Of a DNA stretch of 39,672 nucleotides, positions 5,154 through 25,610 are shown piece by piece. Source of the DNA: a virus; the IMG/VR virus record IMGVR_UViG_3300009158_000092, positions 1 through 39,672 of that record; one strand, 5' to 3'. The notes beneath the pieces were generated by a model. The model did no database searches. It had not been told where the DNA came from and saw only the letters and a list, made by a program, of their open reading frames with translations. The position numbers were made by a program, and so were the translations under genes. The first letter of the stretch is position 1; each line of letters starts with the position of its first letter.

Positions 5154-7088
5154 CTATGCTGAGATATCTACAAGCTCGCAATTTCCATCTGAGCTACAAG
5201 CTAGCGTGGCATTGGTAGATGTTCCGTCTTCTGTCTCATAAAAAGATAAATCTTCCCAACGAATATTTTTGGGCATTTTATCAACAAGACTATCATAATC
5301 TTCTTTTGAAACTTCTTGGTAGGGAGCTTGCTTATAAGAGTGATCAGAATGTGGGAGGAATGAAATTCCAGACACCTCATCAAAATGCTTATATACCCAA
5401 GCACCAACTTCCATCCATTCATCTTCTTTTACAGAAACTGTAATCGATGGCTTATGCTCACACCATGCACGTTGATAGACTAACCAAATATTTAGATGCT
5501 CAATAGCTGTCAAATCATTTCTAACAATTGCACCTTCTGGTGCTTTTACTGGAAACGAAAACACGTATGTGTCATTTGGCTTCATTACATCATCTTCTAC
5601 GGGAATTCCAACTTCTTTTAAAAATGTAGAAATTGGATCGCCTTTTGACCCACGGACAGTACGAATGTAATATGGAGAATGCCATGCATGCATTCCTGAA
5701 GATACCCCGACCAATTGAGATACTGTTCCTGATGGCTTTACGCATGTAATAGCTGCAGACTCTGGAATCCCAATTTTCCCAGCCTCATCTTTATTTGTTT
5801 CTCTTGCTTTTTCTCTAAGTGTCATTAAAAATGCTTCTAAGGAAACTAGATCTTCTTTCCCTGACATAAACTTATTTCCAAATTGCCCAGTTAATGAAAC
5901 ACCAAGTAATCTCTCTTCTTCCGTATTGTCTTTCCAAATTTTACGAAGGTATTTAAAGTCAGTAAGTGTTGATTGCCATGTCCCTAATATTGTAGCAAGC
6001 TCTACTTTGCGCTGAATATCTTTTTTTGTATCTTTTTCACGTAGTACGACTTCTGAAAGGTTACAAAACTGGTAAGGACGTAAAATAATTTCTGAGCATG
6101 GGTTAGTTCCATAATGTATATCTGGACTTCTTCTTCCATGCTTTGCTGCTTGGGCTTGAGCTGCGGCCACATTGTATATGCCTCGCTCTCCTGACTTTGA
6201 GTCATAAAGAGATTTCCATTCTGCAATAAATTGCTCCATACCTGGCTTACGTGAATACGCAACAGAGTTATTAGACAAAGCACGTTGTGGACTTGCTTCC
6301 CACCAATTACCTGATTTAGCTTGAGCCATCTCAATATCGTTAATGTTTGAAAGAGAAATCATTGCTGATCTGCGAACTCCACCAACAACAACAACTTCGC
6401 CAATTTTACACATAATGTCATGGCATTCAATTGGTTTAAGATTTCTTCCTGTAGCATTTTTAAACTTTGCAATTGTAAAATCAAATAAGTTTACAAGAGG
6501 TTGAGGGCCTGATGATCTTCCGCCCATTGTTTTAAGCCTTGCGCCTGCGGGTCTAACTTTTGAAACATCAATTGCTGGGATCTGCCCCGACCAAAGTAGT
6601 GCTAACAACTCACGGTATGCCTTTGCCCAGCCTTGCTTTGAATCTTCTACTGTAATCACCGTGGTCGACTTTTCTAATGACTCTGGGACGGCGGGAAGCT
6701 TATTTATGTACTTGTACTCAACAGAAAACCCTACACCTGTTCCACACATAAGAATATACATTGTTTCATCAAATGAACGTGGTGAATCAACTGGAAGGAA
6801 CGCACAATTGTATCCCGCTACATTGTCTCTGCTTAAAGCTGCCCCTGCAGTCATAACGGAGCGCATTGAGGGCATTACATTTCTTTTAAATACACCGTCT
6901 TTTAATTCCGCAACAAGCTTTTCATCTGGAATATAATTATAATTATCTTTTAGGCTAGTCAGCATAAATGAAAAATATCTATCTACTGTTTCTCCCCATG
7001 TCTCTCTTCTACCATCAGACTCTACCCATTTTGCATACCTAGATAAAGCAATAAAGTTTTCATAAGGGTTTTCAATAGTTCTTGACAT
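5154..7088 (-). CDS. nrdJ: Adenosylcobalamin-dependent (class II) ribonucleotide reductase
   Basis: 644 aa. It reduces ribonucleotides to deoxyribonucleotides for phage DNA synthesis. It resembles the monomeric Lactobacillus-type ribonucleoside-triphosphate reductase. C95 (GYNCAF) and C342 (QFCNLSEV) should form the redox pair, and C331 (NPCSEI) should carry the thiyl radical. The spacing of 11 between C331 and C342 equals C408/C419 of the L. leichmannii enzyme. The C-terminal C631 and C637 are the shuttle cysteines that pass electrons from thioredoxin; a thioredoxin is encoded at 35305-35607. No cobalamin synthesis gene is visible, so the cofactor must come from the host. Compared with the roughly 740-residue reference enzyme it is short, which suggests a reduced allosteric insert. 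Confidence 0.93.
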   Translation of the reverse strand: MSRTIENPYENFIALSRYAKWVESDGRRETWGETVDRYFSFMLTSLKDNYNYIPDEKLVAELKDGVFKRNVMPSMRSVMTAGAALSRDNVAGYNCAFLPVDSPRSFDETMYILMCGTGVGFSVEYKYINKLPAVPESLEKSTTVITVEDSKQGWAKAYRELLALLWSGQIPAIDVSKVRPAGARLKTMGGRSSGPQPLVNLFDFTIAKFKNATGRNLKPIECHDIMCKIGEVVVVGGVRRSAMISLSNINDIEMAQAKSGNWWEASPQRALSNNSVAYSRKPGMEQFIAEWKSLYDSKSGERGIYNVAAAQAQAAKHGRRSPDIHYGTNPCSEIILRPYQFCNLSEVVLREKDTKKDIQRKVELATILGTWQSTLTDFKYLRKIWKDNTEEERLLGVSLTGQFGNKFMSGKEDLVSLEAFLMTLREKARETNKDEAGKIGIPESAAITCVKPSGTVSQLVGVSSGMHAWHSPYYIRTVRGSKGDPISTFLKEVGIPVEDDVMKPNDTYVFSFPVKAPEGAIVRNDLTAIEHLNIWLVYQRAWCEHKPSITVSVKEDEWMEVGAWVYKHFDEVSGISFLPHSDHSYKQAPYQEVSKEDYDSLVDKMPKNIRWEDLSFYETEDGTSTNATLACSSDGNCELVDISA

Positions 7089-15213: not shown

Positions 15214-15247
15214 TCCTACTATAACAACTAACGAAAGAAGGTCAGAG

Positions 15248-16343: not shown

Positions 16344-16592
16344 GGCGTGTCGACTTGACAAATCGGCACGGCGCCCACAATTGTGGCGGCGTCGGGCGTG
16401 TCGTTAAGACGGTGATGAAAATCACCCTAGATTCTACGGCGTGTCGACTTGACAGACAAAACGGACATTATCGTGTGACGCTTATCACATGACTTGAGCG
16501 TCTCACATCATGGACTTACTGGCTAGTAATGTGAAAATGTCAGCCCTATCCGCTATAATTGCGGTATCAACAAAACGAAAGGCGGACACCAA
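16344..16592. other. Composite control region with repeated GGCGTGTCG boxes
   Basis: Non-coding. It has three GGCGTGTCG boxes (16344-16352, 16395-16403, 16438-16446), two of them followed by ACTTGACA. There is a CCACAATTGTGG palindrome (about 16375-16387) and a GGTGA-N6-TCACC site (16411-16426) that resembles the CRP-like palindromes. Promoter unit 4 follows. The same pieces recur at 17600-17713 and 18887-19046. Confidence 0.6.
16474..16559 (+). promoter_or_regulatory. CRP-like site plus TGTCAG promoter, unit 4
   Basis: TGTGA-CGCTTA-TCACA at 16474-16489 (perfect), GTGAAA -35-like, TGTCAG at 16538-16543 and TATAAT at 16554-16559; operator centre about -84.5. The leader AACGAAAG (16574-16581) follows. 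Serves the gene at 16593. Confidence 0.75.
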
Positions 16593-17713: not shown

Positions 17714-17742
17714 TCCAATATCTACAAACGAAAGGTCAACTC

Positions 17743-19046: not shown

Positions 19047-19075
19047 ACTCTTATCCAACAAACGAAAGGCAACAA

Positions 19076-19637: not shown

Positions 19638-19820
19638 ATGACAGTAAATGGATACACTTACAAGGTTGGCGATTTATTCACCACCCTAAAGTCAAAAAAG
19701 ACAGGAGTAATCAAAGAGATTATTCCTAACGCATCTGGCTCGGTGCGAGTGCTACTAGAAATGCCAACGAAAGAAACTCGTTGGACAACAGTTAGCGACT
19801 CAGCCCTAACAGGCGCATAA
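19638..19820 (+). CDS. Small SH3-like beta protein
   Basis: 60 aa from the ATG at 19638 behind GAAAGGAAG; an in-frame ATG at 19590 is part of the TGTCAG promoter box and is not a real start. YKVGDLFTTLKSKKTGVIKE and VRVLLEMPTKETRW give a five-strand pattern like small KOW/SH3-type barrels. Function unknown. Confidence 0.6.
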   Translation: MTVNGYTYKVGDLFTTLKSKKTGVIKEIIPNASGSVRVLLEMPTKETRWTTVSDSALTGA

Positions 19821-19948: not shown

Positions 19949-19982
19949 AATCAACCAACCAACTAACGAAAGAAGGCAACAA

Positions 19983-20917: not shown

Positions 20918-20950
20918 TACATCAACAACTAAACGAAAGGAAATAAATCC

Positions 20951-22184: not shown

Positions 22185-22850
22185 ATGACCAACGAACTAA
22201 TATCAAGTAAATATACATTTATCTGCGACCCAGATGAGTGTGATTGTCTAATCGAACTAACATCATCGGACGGGTTTGGATTCCCTTCTGGTGTGACAGA
22301 GCTCACATGCCCGTGTGGTCGCAAGACCACATTAGTGTCAGTGGAGCATGCTACAATACAACCAACAAACCAAACGAAAGAGGAAAAAATGGAAGAAACA
22401 ACTGTAGGAACTATTAACGACCTGCTTACACCTTACAACCCTGATATGTTAGTAACATACAAAAAGATTAGTGGTTATTCTGATACAGAATTCCTTACTG
22501 ATAAGGTTCGCAACATTGAATGGGAACTCCACAACGCTAGAACTAATTCTAAAGCGGTATCTGCAATTCAAAATAAGATTAGTTTAGTTAAAGATATTAT
22601 CACCGAAGCATATGCTGATTCACTTGACCAAGAAACACTTCAGGCAATTGCTGAAGCACTTGAAATTCAACTTACACGTGAAGTTGAATGGTCTGCAACA
22701 ATTGAGGTTAGCGGAACATTAACAATTGATTTGCTTGAGAGCACAGTTGATGATGTCGAACAAGAAATCTACGACAATCTTTATGTTGACTCACAGAACG
22801 GTCAGATTGAAATTGTTGATACTGAAGTAACTAATGTAAGGGAGAACTAA
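22185..22850 (+). CDS. Zinc-ribbon protein fused in frame to a helical domain
   Basis: 221 aa from the leaderless ATG at 22185. The first 68 residues hold CDPDECDC and LTCPCGRKT, a C4 zinc ribbon. Then the frame runs on without a stop through a complete second promoter and leader (unit 12) into a helical, acidic domain that has its own start at 22389. The linker (SVEHATIQPTNQTKEEK) is the translated promoter. Either one long protein and one short one are made, or the long frame is accidental. Confidence 0.55.
   Translation: MTNELISSKYTFICDPDECDCLIELTSSDGFGFPSGVTELTCPCGRKTTLVSVEHATIQPTNQTKEEKMEETTVGTINDLLTPYNPDMLVTYKKISGYSDTEFLTDKVRNIEWELHNARTNSKAVSAIQNKISLVKDIITEAYADSLDQETLQAIAEALEIQLTREVEWSATIEVSGTLTIDLLESTVDDVEQEIYDNLYVDSQNGQIEIVDTEVTNVREN
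22292..22357 (+). promoter_or_regulatory. CRP-like site plus TGTCAG promoter, unit 12, inside a gene
   Basis: TGTGA-CAGAGC-TCACA at 22292-22307 (perfect), TGTCAG at 22336-22341, TACAAT at 22352-22357, leader AAACGAAAGAGG. Operator centre about -64.5. All of it lies inside the open frame of 22185-22850. Serves the ATG at 22389. Confidence 0.7.
22389..22850 (+). CDS. Nested short product, acidic helical protein
   Basis: 153 aa in the same frame as the long gene, with its own promoter and an AAAGAGGAAAAA site. Rich in Glu/Asp and Ile/Leu; a beta segment VEWSATIEVSGTLTID (about 99-114) lies toward the C-terminus. No family recognised. This is probably the main product. Confidence 0.65.
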   Translation: MEETTVGTINDLLTPYNPDMLVTYKKISGYSDTEFLTDKVRNIEWELHNARTNSKAVSAIQNKISLVKDIITEAYADSLDQETLQAIAEALEIQLTREVEWSATIEVSGTLTIDLLESTVDDVEQEIYDNLYVDSQNGQIEIVDTEVTNVREN

Positions 22851-23385: not shown

Positions 23386-23751
23386 ATGGGAGATAGAGCA
23401 AACTTTGGGTTTACAGATTCCAAGGGAGATACGTTATATCTATATGGACACTGGGCTGGATATCAAATGCTAGCCAACCTTGCTACTGCTGTAGAGGCAG
23501 CACGAGGTCGGTGGACAGATGAATCATATGCCACACGTATTTGTGTGTCACAATTAATCGGAGCACAATGGCCACAAGAAACTGGCTGGGGTCTCAGCAT
23601 TAATCGATTAGGAGATAACGAACATAAGGTCCCTGTTATTAATTGGCAGGCTAGAACGTTTACTCTATATGAGGAAGACCTAACCACGGAAGTGTTTCAT
23701 ACAAGTTTAGATGCATTTGTATCTAAATACAGTCAACCAGTTATGGTATAA
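23386..23751 (+). CDS. Conserved-type phage hypothetical protein
   Basis: 121 aa from the ATG at 23386, one base after the previous stop. GDRANFGFTDSKGDTLYLYG and a beta-rich core resemble small proteins found in several actinophages ('MGDRANFGF...'). Function unknown. Its stop codon overlaps the -10 box of the small-RNA promoter. Confidence 0.65.
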   Translation: MGDRANFGFTDSKGDTLYLYGHWAGYQMLANLATAVEAARGRWTDESYATRICVSQLIGAQWPQETGWGLSINRLGDNEHKVPVINWQARTFTLYEEDLTTEVFHTSLDAFVSKYSQPVMV

Positions 23752-23752
23752 T
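23747..23752 (+). promoter_or_regulatory. Extended -10 promoter of the candidate small RNA
   Basis: TGG-TATAAT (-10 at 23747-23752) with a poor -35 (TAAATA). It overlaps the stop codon at 23751. Predicted start near 23759. It lacks the TGTCAG box and CRP-like site of the early genes. Confidence 0.5.
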
Positions 23753-23758
23753 TAAACT

Positions 23759-23905
23759 AGGACTAAGGTCCTGGTTTTAATAGGAAATATAATGGTGCAT
23801 CTATCAGTCTGCGGGCCAGGTGCTAAGTAAAGCGGGTTTATTTCTTTCGTTGGAAATCCAGGCAGCCATTCTAAGACCCCCAGGTAAGATCTGGGGGTTT
23901 TTCTA
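23759..23905 (+). ncRNA. Candidate small RNA with an anti-leader loop
   Basis: Bounded by an extended -10 and a strong terminator (23876-23898). No gene of useful length fits. The hairpin AUUUC-UUUCGUUG-GAAAU (23840-23857) shows an 8-base loop, UUUCGUUG, exactly complementary to CAACGAAA, the core of the shared leader and ribosome-binding site of the TGTCAG genes. With stem bases included, UUCUUUCGUU could pair over 10 bases with leaders such as 15230-15239. Pairing would cover the ribosome-binding site, so repression is the simplest idea. Inference; expression is not shown. Confidence 0.5.
23876..23903 (+). terminator. Strong intrinsic terminator
   Basis: ACCCCCAG (23876-23883), 7-base loop, CTGGGGGT (23891-23898), then five more T-rich bases. 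It ends the candidate small RNA and the preceding operon. Confidence 0.85.
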
Positions 23906-23969
23906 TGCCCGCAAAAGCTAAGGGTAAAATATTTCTTTTAAGATGTCAATAGCAAATCGCCTGAAATTC

Positions 23970-24052: not shown

Positions 24053-24079
24053 TGGAACATATCAACGAAAGGATATAAT

Positions 24080-24817
24080 ATGCCAAATTGGGTGTATAAC
24101 GGTTTAACTATTGAGGGAAATCCTGACCAAGTTAAATCTTTAATTAAACAGATGAATAAGCCATTTGTTTATTCAATTACTGCAGTAGGTGATTTATCAT
24201 ATGATGTCAAGCAGACTAAGTATGTTAATCCTATCTTTGCTTTTCATAATATCTATAACTATAGAGATGCTGGTATTACTGATGAGGTATATCATGGACA
24301 GCCTCCTCGTTCCGCCGACTTTTCACAAGCAATGAAGTTTGAGACCAATGACTGGTACAACTTTAATGTTCGTGAGTGGGGAACTAAATGGGATGTAGCC
24401 GTATCTGAGGATAATAAATATCCTGATACATATATGGAAGAATCTGAGAATGGCGAGAACTATGTAGTCTATTATAACTTTAACACTGCATGGTCACGAC
24501 CTCTTGGTGCTATCTCTAAACTATCTGCACAATACCCAACACTACTATTTACTTTATCATATGAAGAAGAAACAGGCTGGGGTGGAGAAATGGAATTCCT
24601 CCGTGGTGAAGTTATCTCAGAATCAGAATACGAAAACCAATGTCGTGATTGTGATGCAACAGACCAAATGGAATACTGCGAAGAAGACTGCGGAGAAATC
24701 TGTGGCAACTGCAATTGGCTTGGCGAGGCAGACCTAGAGGCTGTAGCAAAATGTCAGACCCATAAGATATACTTAGACACTAAAGTACCCGAATATCGAA
24801 AGGCGGAGGCAAAATGA
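24080..24817 (+). CDS. Api92/DUF1281-like protein with ferredoxin-type fold
   Basis: 245 aa from the ATG at 24080 behind CAACGAAAGG. The start MPNWVYNGLTIEGNPDQV is the hallmark of Api92-like/YubB ferredoxin-fold proteins of phages and plasmids, and FNTAWSRPLGAISKLSAQYP and EETGWGGE match the rest of that domain. A C-terminal Cys-rich tail (CRDCDATDQMEYCEEDCGEI) adds a possible zinc site. The role of the family is not established. Confidence 0.8.
   Translation: MPNWVYNGLTIEGNPDQVKSLIKQMNKPFVYSITAVGDLSYDVKQTKYVNPIFAFHNIYNYRDAGITDEVYHGQPPRSADFSQAMKFETNDWYNFNVREWGTKWDVAVSEDNKYPDTYMEESENGENYVVYYNFNTAWSRPLGAISKLSAQYPTLLFTLSYEEETGWGGEMEFLRGEVISESEYENQCRDCDATDQMEYCEEDCGEICGNCNWLGEADLEAVAKCQTHKIYLDTKVPEYRKAEAK
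24752..24773 (+). promoter_or_regulatory. Intragenic TGTCAG promoter, unit 14
   Basis: TGTCAG (24752-24757), ten bases, TATACT (24768-24773), inside the 3' end of the Api92-like gene. The leader variant TCGAAAGGCGG follows and serves the ATG at 24814. No CRP-like site. Confidence 0.6.
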
Positions 24818-25411: not shown

Positions 25412-25610
25412 GTCATCAGCATTTATAGAATACATGAAGATTCATTTAATTAGTCTTAACCAGGACTTAGAGGATGCACGTAATAATGTTGCCTTAAATG
25501 AAGATGAATACTTTGAATCAGATAATTTTTATATGGGAGCAATTGACGCAACCGAACATTTATTGTCAGTGGCTACTGATATAATGAACTCTACTAACGA
25601 AAGGGTATAA
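25404..25610 (+). CDS. Small hypothetical protein
   Basis: 68 aa with a TTG start that overlaps the previous gene by 8 bases behind GGAGGG. Acidic helix (LEDARNNVALNEDEYFESDN). Promoter unit 15 lies in its 3' end. Unknown. Confidence 0.55.
   Translation: MTKSSAFIEYMKIHLISLNQDLEDARNNVALNEDEYFESDNFYMGAIDATEHLLSVATDIMNSTNERV
25564..25585 (+). promoter_or_regulatory. Intragenic TGTCAG promoter, unit 15
   Basis: TGTCAG (25564-25569), ten bases, TATAAT (25580-25585), leader TAACGAAAGGG; serves 25612. No CRP-like site. Inside the previous coding sequence. Confidence 0.7.

Follow-up and report, generated by a model that had tools for sequence, protein, structure and literature searches.

The window analyzed here is the whole 39,672-nucleotide stretch of the virus record IMGVR_UViG_3300009158_000092. 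Two of its proteins, DUF932 and GP88, point to a relationship with actinophages, with ~52% identity to Streptomyces phages, and the host group is probably the Actinobacteria; the host may be a freshwater member of that group. A ribonucleotide reductase gene (phrog_367) lies on the minus strand at 5154-7088, and the window also contains scattered tRNA genes (Ile, Asp, Arg, and Leu).

Inspection of the sequence locates a gene-free unit at 23757-23903 on the plus strand, with an extended -10 promoter and a terminator (Table 1). The stop codon of the upstream gene sits within the TATAAT element (23747-23752), and the next gene downstream of the RNA begins at 24080. No ORF of at least 40 amino acids is found between 23752 and the terminator, and a coding origin of the unit was therefore rejected. 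The sequence-only reading had described such a bracketed stretch without a gene, and both signals are indeed in place. A conserved element, GCCCGCAAA..GGGTA, lies 3' of the RNA at 23920-23938; it occurs once in the window and is present in 67 of 80 distinct relatives, whether or not a terminator is there.

Table 1. Predicted RNA unit and tagged leaders in the window
Feature	Position	Strand	Basis or detail
Extended -10 promoter element TGGTATAAT of the RNA (TG-G-TATAAT)	23744..23752	+	sequence; overlaps upstream gene's stop codon
Predicted small RNA, ~147 nt	23757..23903	+	ends placed from promoter and terminator
5' hairpin AGGAC-UAAG-GUCCU	23759..23772	+	sequence and alignment of relatives
Conserved core of RNA family	23786..23875	+	match to covariance model R1 at 82.5 bits (E 2e-19); model includes the window sequence
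Helix P1, 5' strand AAUGG-UG	23791..23797	+	covariation; partner 23863-23870, bulged G between
Helix P2, 5' strand CAUCU	23798..23802	+	partner AGGUG 23818-23822; paired in 59/59 variants, compensatory changes
Conserved junction CUAAGUAAAGC	23823..23833	+	alignment of relatives
Helix P4, 5' strand GGGUUU	23834..23839	+	covariation; partner AAAUCC 23854-23859
Seed CUUUCGUU in P4 loop	23844..23851	+	full complement of AACGAAAG
Intrinsic terminator CCCCCAG..CUGGGGG-UUUUU	~23875..23903	+	sequence; unrelated hairpins at equivalent place in relatives
AACGAAAG leader tag	15230..15237	+	gene start 15248
AACGAAAG leader tag	16574..16581	+	gene start 16593
AACGAAAG leader tag	17727..17734	+	start codon 17743, 30-aa frame
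AACGAAAG leader tag	19061..19068	+	gene start 19076
AACGAAAG leader tag	19965..19972	+	gene start 19983
AACGAAAG leader tag	20932..20939	+	gene start 20951, DUF932 protein
AACGAAAG leader tag	22373..22380	+	gene start 22389
AACGAAAG leader tag	24064..24071	+	gene start 24080, Api92/DUF1281_C-like protein, first gene 3' of RNA
AACGAAAG leader tag	25596..25603	+	gene start 25612

The octamer AACGAAAG, termed the tag, is present in 11 copies in the window, compared with 0.94 expected, and none of 100 shuffles reaches 11. Ten copies are on the plus strand, and the sole minus-strand copy is the loop of the RNA, where TTTCTTTCGTTGG contains the complementary octamer CTTTCGTT; a loop complementary to a shared leader, as the earlier reading had claimed, is thus borne out. 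In the whole window the tag is the commonest 8-mer located 2-13 nt before ATG or GTG, and no other 8-mer of the RNA, out of 140, has as many complements at leader positions as CTTTCGTT. The shuffles and this ranking rule out a chance origin of the match. Nine copies lie at ribosome sites, positioned 7-11 nt 5' of an ATG, and all nine tagged leaders are downstream of the same promoter type, TGTCAG-(7-13)-TAnnnT. Within the tag, GAAAG is the Shine-Dalgarno part and AAC lies upstream of it, so the exact complement of the loop overlies the Shine-Dalgarno site of nine promoter-proximal genes. The tenth plus-strand copy, at 19766, falls within an ORF and is not preceded by a promoter cassette. Therefore, a leader shared by many genes stands, but the count of at least ten comes down to nine, and the octamer CAACGAAA, which had been named, itself or through its core, as the common leader, fronts only one gene (24063). 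The intra-ORF copy is part of a self-complementary sequence at 19764-19784, CCAACGAAAGAAACTCGTTGG, whose predicted duplex with the RNA loop is the strongest of all, at -18.7 kcal/mol.

Relatives of the RNA were collected beside the DUF1281_C-like gene, by DNA patterns with and without the loop, and by covariance model, yielding 81 distinct RNA cores in IMG/VR contigs; many of the RNA-positive contigs are ~105-117 kb. Among the named phages of the collection, BLAST found no relative of the RNA, and no relative of the DUF1281 protein was found in named phages either. The RNA region has no match at the gathering threshold among 4227 Rfam families, so identity with a known RNA was rejected, and comparison of four relatives (L328, L382, L306, and L317) with Rfam returned only one tRNA. 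A host-genome copy was also considered and rejected: when 84,980 genomes were scanned for the RNA in a loose form, 87 matches appeared in unrelated taxa, approximately the number due to chance by our own estimate.

The family architecture comprises P1, P2, an inner hairpin that varies among members, the junction YUAARUAAAGC, which is nearly invariant, and P4, which carries the seed loop. P1 is formed by GG-UG with CA-G-CC and is lengthened by covarying outer pairs, and P2 takes forms such as CCCCU/AGGGG, CGGCU/AGUCG, and CGUCU/AGGCG. The conserved stem around the loop is GGGUUU/AAAUCC, immediately outside the AUUUC/GAAAU stem originally read, and it encloses a loop of 14 nt. The inner stem is a competing fold in the clade of the window, and folding predicts that the ends of the seed are partly paired in the free RNA of this clade.

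Covariation is strong for P1, P2, and P4. The whole-structure covariation score is 0.373, compared with 0.132 in shuffles, and 0 of 500 shuffles reach it. Scores of 0.378 and 0.388 were obtained on two alignments made with covariance models, which lean toward the model that made them, and shuffles overall give 0.13-0.15. P4 is paired in 87% of cells versus 61% in shuffles, and sliding of the partners abolishes the signal. Compensatory changes in the helices thus exceed both the shuffled and the slid controls. Single-sequence folding is a weak guide for this RNA, which alone folds little better than shuffles (z = -1.6); the claim of structure therefore rests on covariation, not on folding energy. 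On this comparative evidence, the RNAs are a structured, uncatalogued family that is absent from Rfam 15.

Invariance of the loop in alignment A1 arises partly by construction, because some searches and the selection of rows required the loop. In locus searches that made no such demand, the loop is present in 25/28, 29/35, and 32/33 distinct matches to a model that was itself built from looped members; two of the loopless matches are weak and probably due to chance. Of the unpaired parts of the family, none is more conserved than the junction (23823-23833 in the window), partly by construction in that some searches required it, and it is kept even where the seed loop is lost, which suggests a separate scaffold function. 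A pseudoknot between junction UAAGUAAA and the 5' side of the loop can be drawn by eye for some clades but not for others, and is not claimed.

Terminator-like hairpins accompany 57 of the 81 distinct cores, and 52 of 81 have an upstream extended -10 or TATAAT element; both kinds of signal are found in 45/81 and neither in 13/81, counted as consensus matches rather than as measured activity. Terminators at the same position differ in sequence among relatives, which points to selection for termination. The window RNA has its own promoter and terminator signals, as expected of a trans-acting sRNA. Neither signal is present in clade GGUGCCCC (for example, L059 and L130), whose RNA may be cut from a longer transcript.

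If the loop reads the tag, the two should occur together. Fifty whole records were compared, with the RNA identified by covariance model and AACGAAAG counted per strand. RNA-positive records usually have 6-15 tags on one strand, although some short or cut ones carry few. Records without the RNA have 0-3 tags per strand, and six of them, including an 89-kb record, have none; the exception is L034. RNA-negative phages that keep TGTCAG promoters use AAAGAAAG, ACAGAAAG, or AACAAAGG leaders, and one of them (L070) has the tag in 1 of 10 cassettes. In TGTCAG cassettes, the triplet before GAAAG is compatible with pairing in 419/543 leaders of RNA-positive phages versus 5/37 leaders of RNA-negative or loopless phages, counts that are uncorrected for relatedness. 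The AAC part of the tag is common in looped phages and rare in loopless ones, also at orthologous genes.

Six genes are represented in both classes of record, and in these the tag of the ortholog follows the state of the RNA. For gene 19983, a compatible tag is found in 108/110 RNA-positive rows and in 1/7 RNA-negative rows, the one being L034; for gene 25612, approximately half of the RNA-positive orthologs are without the tag. Orthologs in RNA-negative phages have lost the tag and kept the Shine-Dalgarno site. For example, L033 encodes a DUF1281 protein with 91% identity to that of the window, but its leader is ACAGAAAG and the record is without the RNA.

On the tree of the DUF1281 protein gene, the state of the RNA changes nine times. 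Among supported independent pairs, the leader differs in the same way as the RNA in five, in the opposite way in none, and not at all in one (p = 0.0625); the pair without a difference is as expected from L034. Three further gene trees contribute 1-3 informative pairs each (2:0, about 2:0, and, for DUF932, 1:1). Because independent pairs are few, the phylogenetic test alone is suggestive, not conclusive. Seed complementarity is kept across records and orthologs, in few independent events, and the sequences show that most of the phages compared have either both loop and tag or neither. Covariation between the bases that flank the octamer in the loop and in the leader was looked for and not found, and non-AAC leaders of RNA-positive phages are not significantly enriched in wobble-compatible forms (20/144 vs 1/33, p = 0.13).

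Natural variants show how far loop and leader can part. The close sisters L034 and L035 share flanks, and L034 lacks exactly the RNA and keeps its tags (junction AAGGTG/AAAAGACTAAGGG), so the loss is either recent or an assembly gap. At ~7810-7830 of L034, compared with 7695-7850 of L035, the whole RNA and its terminator are cleanly gone and the leaders untouched. In L061, one base of the loop has changed (to CUUUCGAU) with the leader unchanged. Independent change of leader and loop, which would have counted against the proposed pairing, is thus seen, but only in these minor cases. Several RNA-positive phages have AGCGAAAG as the 24080-type leader, which still pairs with the loop through a G-U wobble.

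Other variants retain the scaffold and not the seed. In L072, L319, L324, L346, and L347, P1, P2, and the junction are kept and P4 is cut down to GCGC-UUAG-GCGC or a similar form; among the listed leaders of this clade there is no uniform sequence. The loop is CUGGGGGUGUU in L320, L339, and L382, and CCUCGAAAA in L328. Neither L382 nor L328 has AACGAAAG as its common leader, and complements of their own loops are absent from the leaders listed. Phages with the scaffold and no seed loop are thus also without the tag as a common leader. Because these related loopless RNAs exist, the scaffold may predate the seed. A short scaffold-like RNA without a seed loop (35 bits) is found at 518-584 of L219 and 6418-6484 of L264, two bases upstream of a tRNA-Gly gene, in a phage with a large tRNA cluster.

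We consider it likely that the RNA is a phage-encoded sRNA that acts in trans, pairing with many mRNAs of the phage at their ribosome sites and most likely blocking their translation. The P4 loop would pair with the tag over 8 bp, or 9 bp where C precedes the tag. The duplex would cover the GAAAG of the Shine-Dalgarno site, compete with the 16S rRNA tail, and block 30S binding. For the nine leaders, predicted duplexes with the loop are -10 to -16 kcal/mol, compared with shuffled means of -6 to -8 kcal/mol and with -7.5 to -11.3 kcal/mol for the standard 16S tail; the real gain is smaller because a stem closes the loop. Accumulation of one RNA would turn down nine transcription units together, and targets in excess would titrate the RNA, such that the switch would depend on the ratio of the two. 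Because the leaders are short and rich in A, the RNA more likely blocks than opens them, and repression is the probable outcome provided that pairing occurs. The promoter of the RNA has no TGTCAG element, unlike the leader promoters, and thus RNA and tagged leaders could be expressed at different times. The earlier proposal of one RNA facing many leaders gains from these comparisons: the RNA is conserved and covarying, in most clades it has promoter and terminator signals of its own, and AAC follows the loop.

Another cause for the octamer has to be weighed, because GAAAG(G) is an ordinary Shine-Dalgarno sequence and CUUUC an anti-Shine-Dalgarno sequence. The RNA could be real and AACGAAAG simply the preferred ribosome site or initially transcribed sequence of this phage group, the loop resembling the 16S anti-Shine-Dalgarno tail CCUUUC, such that both converge on the ribosome without ever meeting. 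The lack of covariation between the flanks of loop and leader fits this explanation, as does Microbacterium phage AnnaSerena, in which a similar repeated extended ribosome site has no reverse copy in a non-coding hairpin loop. However, AAC is unneeded for pairing with 16S rRNA, yet its presence follows that of the loop, both at orthologous genes and downstream of the same TGTCAG promoters, and the only antisense copy of the octamer in the window is the RNA loop. Separate causes are therefore unlikely, although they are the alternative to which we give the most weight.

We regard it as more doubtful still that the leaders act on the RNA, with the tags as a sponge that titrates or opens it and the scaffold doing the real work. 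Seedless scaffold RNAs in several clades (L072/L319, L320/L382/L339, L328, and possibly L219/L264) would suit this arrangement, but the tag overlies the Shine-Dalgarno site of its target, where repression classically acts, and a scaffold function is conjectural. A signal at the DNA level, in which the octamer is a protein-binding site that happens to be inverted inside the RNA gene, is very improbable: the tags are close to promoters, as such a site might be, but the reverse copy sits in the loop of a covarying RNA hairpin, and untagged promoters of the same type are common in RNA-negative phages.

A trans-acting sRNA that represses through its loop would have precedents. As summarized in PMC10470900 (citing Mai et al. 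2019), loops of the 6C/B11 sRNA of mycobacteria pair with the ribosome-binding sites of several mRNAs, and compensatory changes in loop and UTR restore repression. This folded actinobacterial sRNA, with its loop directed to the ribosome site, is a direct precedent for such repression; however, by the same account (PMC10470900), it is host-encoded and has two C-run loops and generic G-rich targets. The phage RNA has another fold, an 8-nt seed, and a dedicated matching tag. It gives no hit to Rfam, the 6C covariance model included, and its loop carries CUUUCGUU rather than two C-rich loops. The c4 RNA of phages P1 and P7, whose complementary sequence is likely in loops, binds around the ribosome site of a phage mRNA and blocks its translation (PMC12197685). 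There is likewise no hit to the c4 covariance model, and c4 has one target, in antirepressor control, whereas the window RNA faces nine units that share one tag. Mycobacteriophages L5 and D29 produce highly expressed non-coding RNAs (PMC5712189), which, in the portion of that source that describes them, are not tied to a repeated leader; the likeness is by description.

Start-associated sequences (SAS) are conserved repeats, longer than the Shine-Dalgarno sequence, that mark the ribosome sites of 10-19 genes of a phage and often have their own promoter (ESAS) (PMC3203893, PMC11373665; for Microbacterium cluster EF, PMC7302621). In cluster K mycobacteriophages, GGGATAGGAGCCC is found at up to 19 ribosome sites; in 2011 its authors stated that the role of SAS is unknown, asked about an RNA or protein partner, and pointed out that four K1 phages have a single copy in the opposite orientation (PMC3203893). 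The position at many phage genes is analogous to that of the window tag, but SAS is 13 bp with another sequence, and neither GGGATAGGAGCCC nor the EF form is matched by the 8-bp tag. In Adephagia (JF704105), the reverse SAS at 58682-58694 (28783-28795 of L483) falls within an intergenic gap of 433 bp and occupies the apical loop of a long hairpin. The K1 reverse SAS is complementary to the SAS at many ribosome sites and has homologous places in L484, L485, L486, and L488. This loop is kept in Anaya, Niklas, Validus, and, with two mismatches, LilPharaoh, and stem bases vary. Eleven other cluster K phages with 7-17 SAS copies have no reverse copy at one mismatch, nor does AnnaSerena have one in a non-coding hairpin loop. 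Because the K1 type fits but these phages do not, the SAS link is a lead, not a general explanation.

More tentatively, and with somewhat less than even confidence, we propose a regulon built on an RNA-RNA code: one octamer on most promoter-proximal ribosome sites of a gene block, read by the loop of one structured RNA, within a widespread family in which the loop is exchangeable or lost. The SAS repeats of other actinophages may partly be the same strategy.

The RNAs add a new family, found in many environmental phage genomes, to those cataloged. If the proposed function is correct, one phage RNA would control how a whole block of transcription units is translated, by means of a shared site made for the purpose; the phage RNAs whose descriptions we found have one or a few targets. 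It would also give a concrete kind of role to repeated ribosome-site sequences, which have been unexplained in actinophages since 2011.
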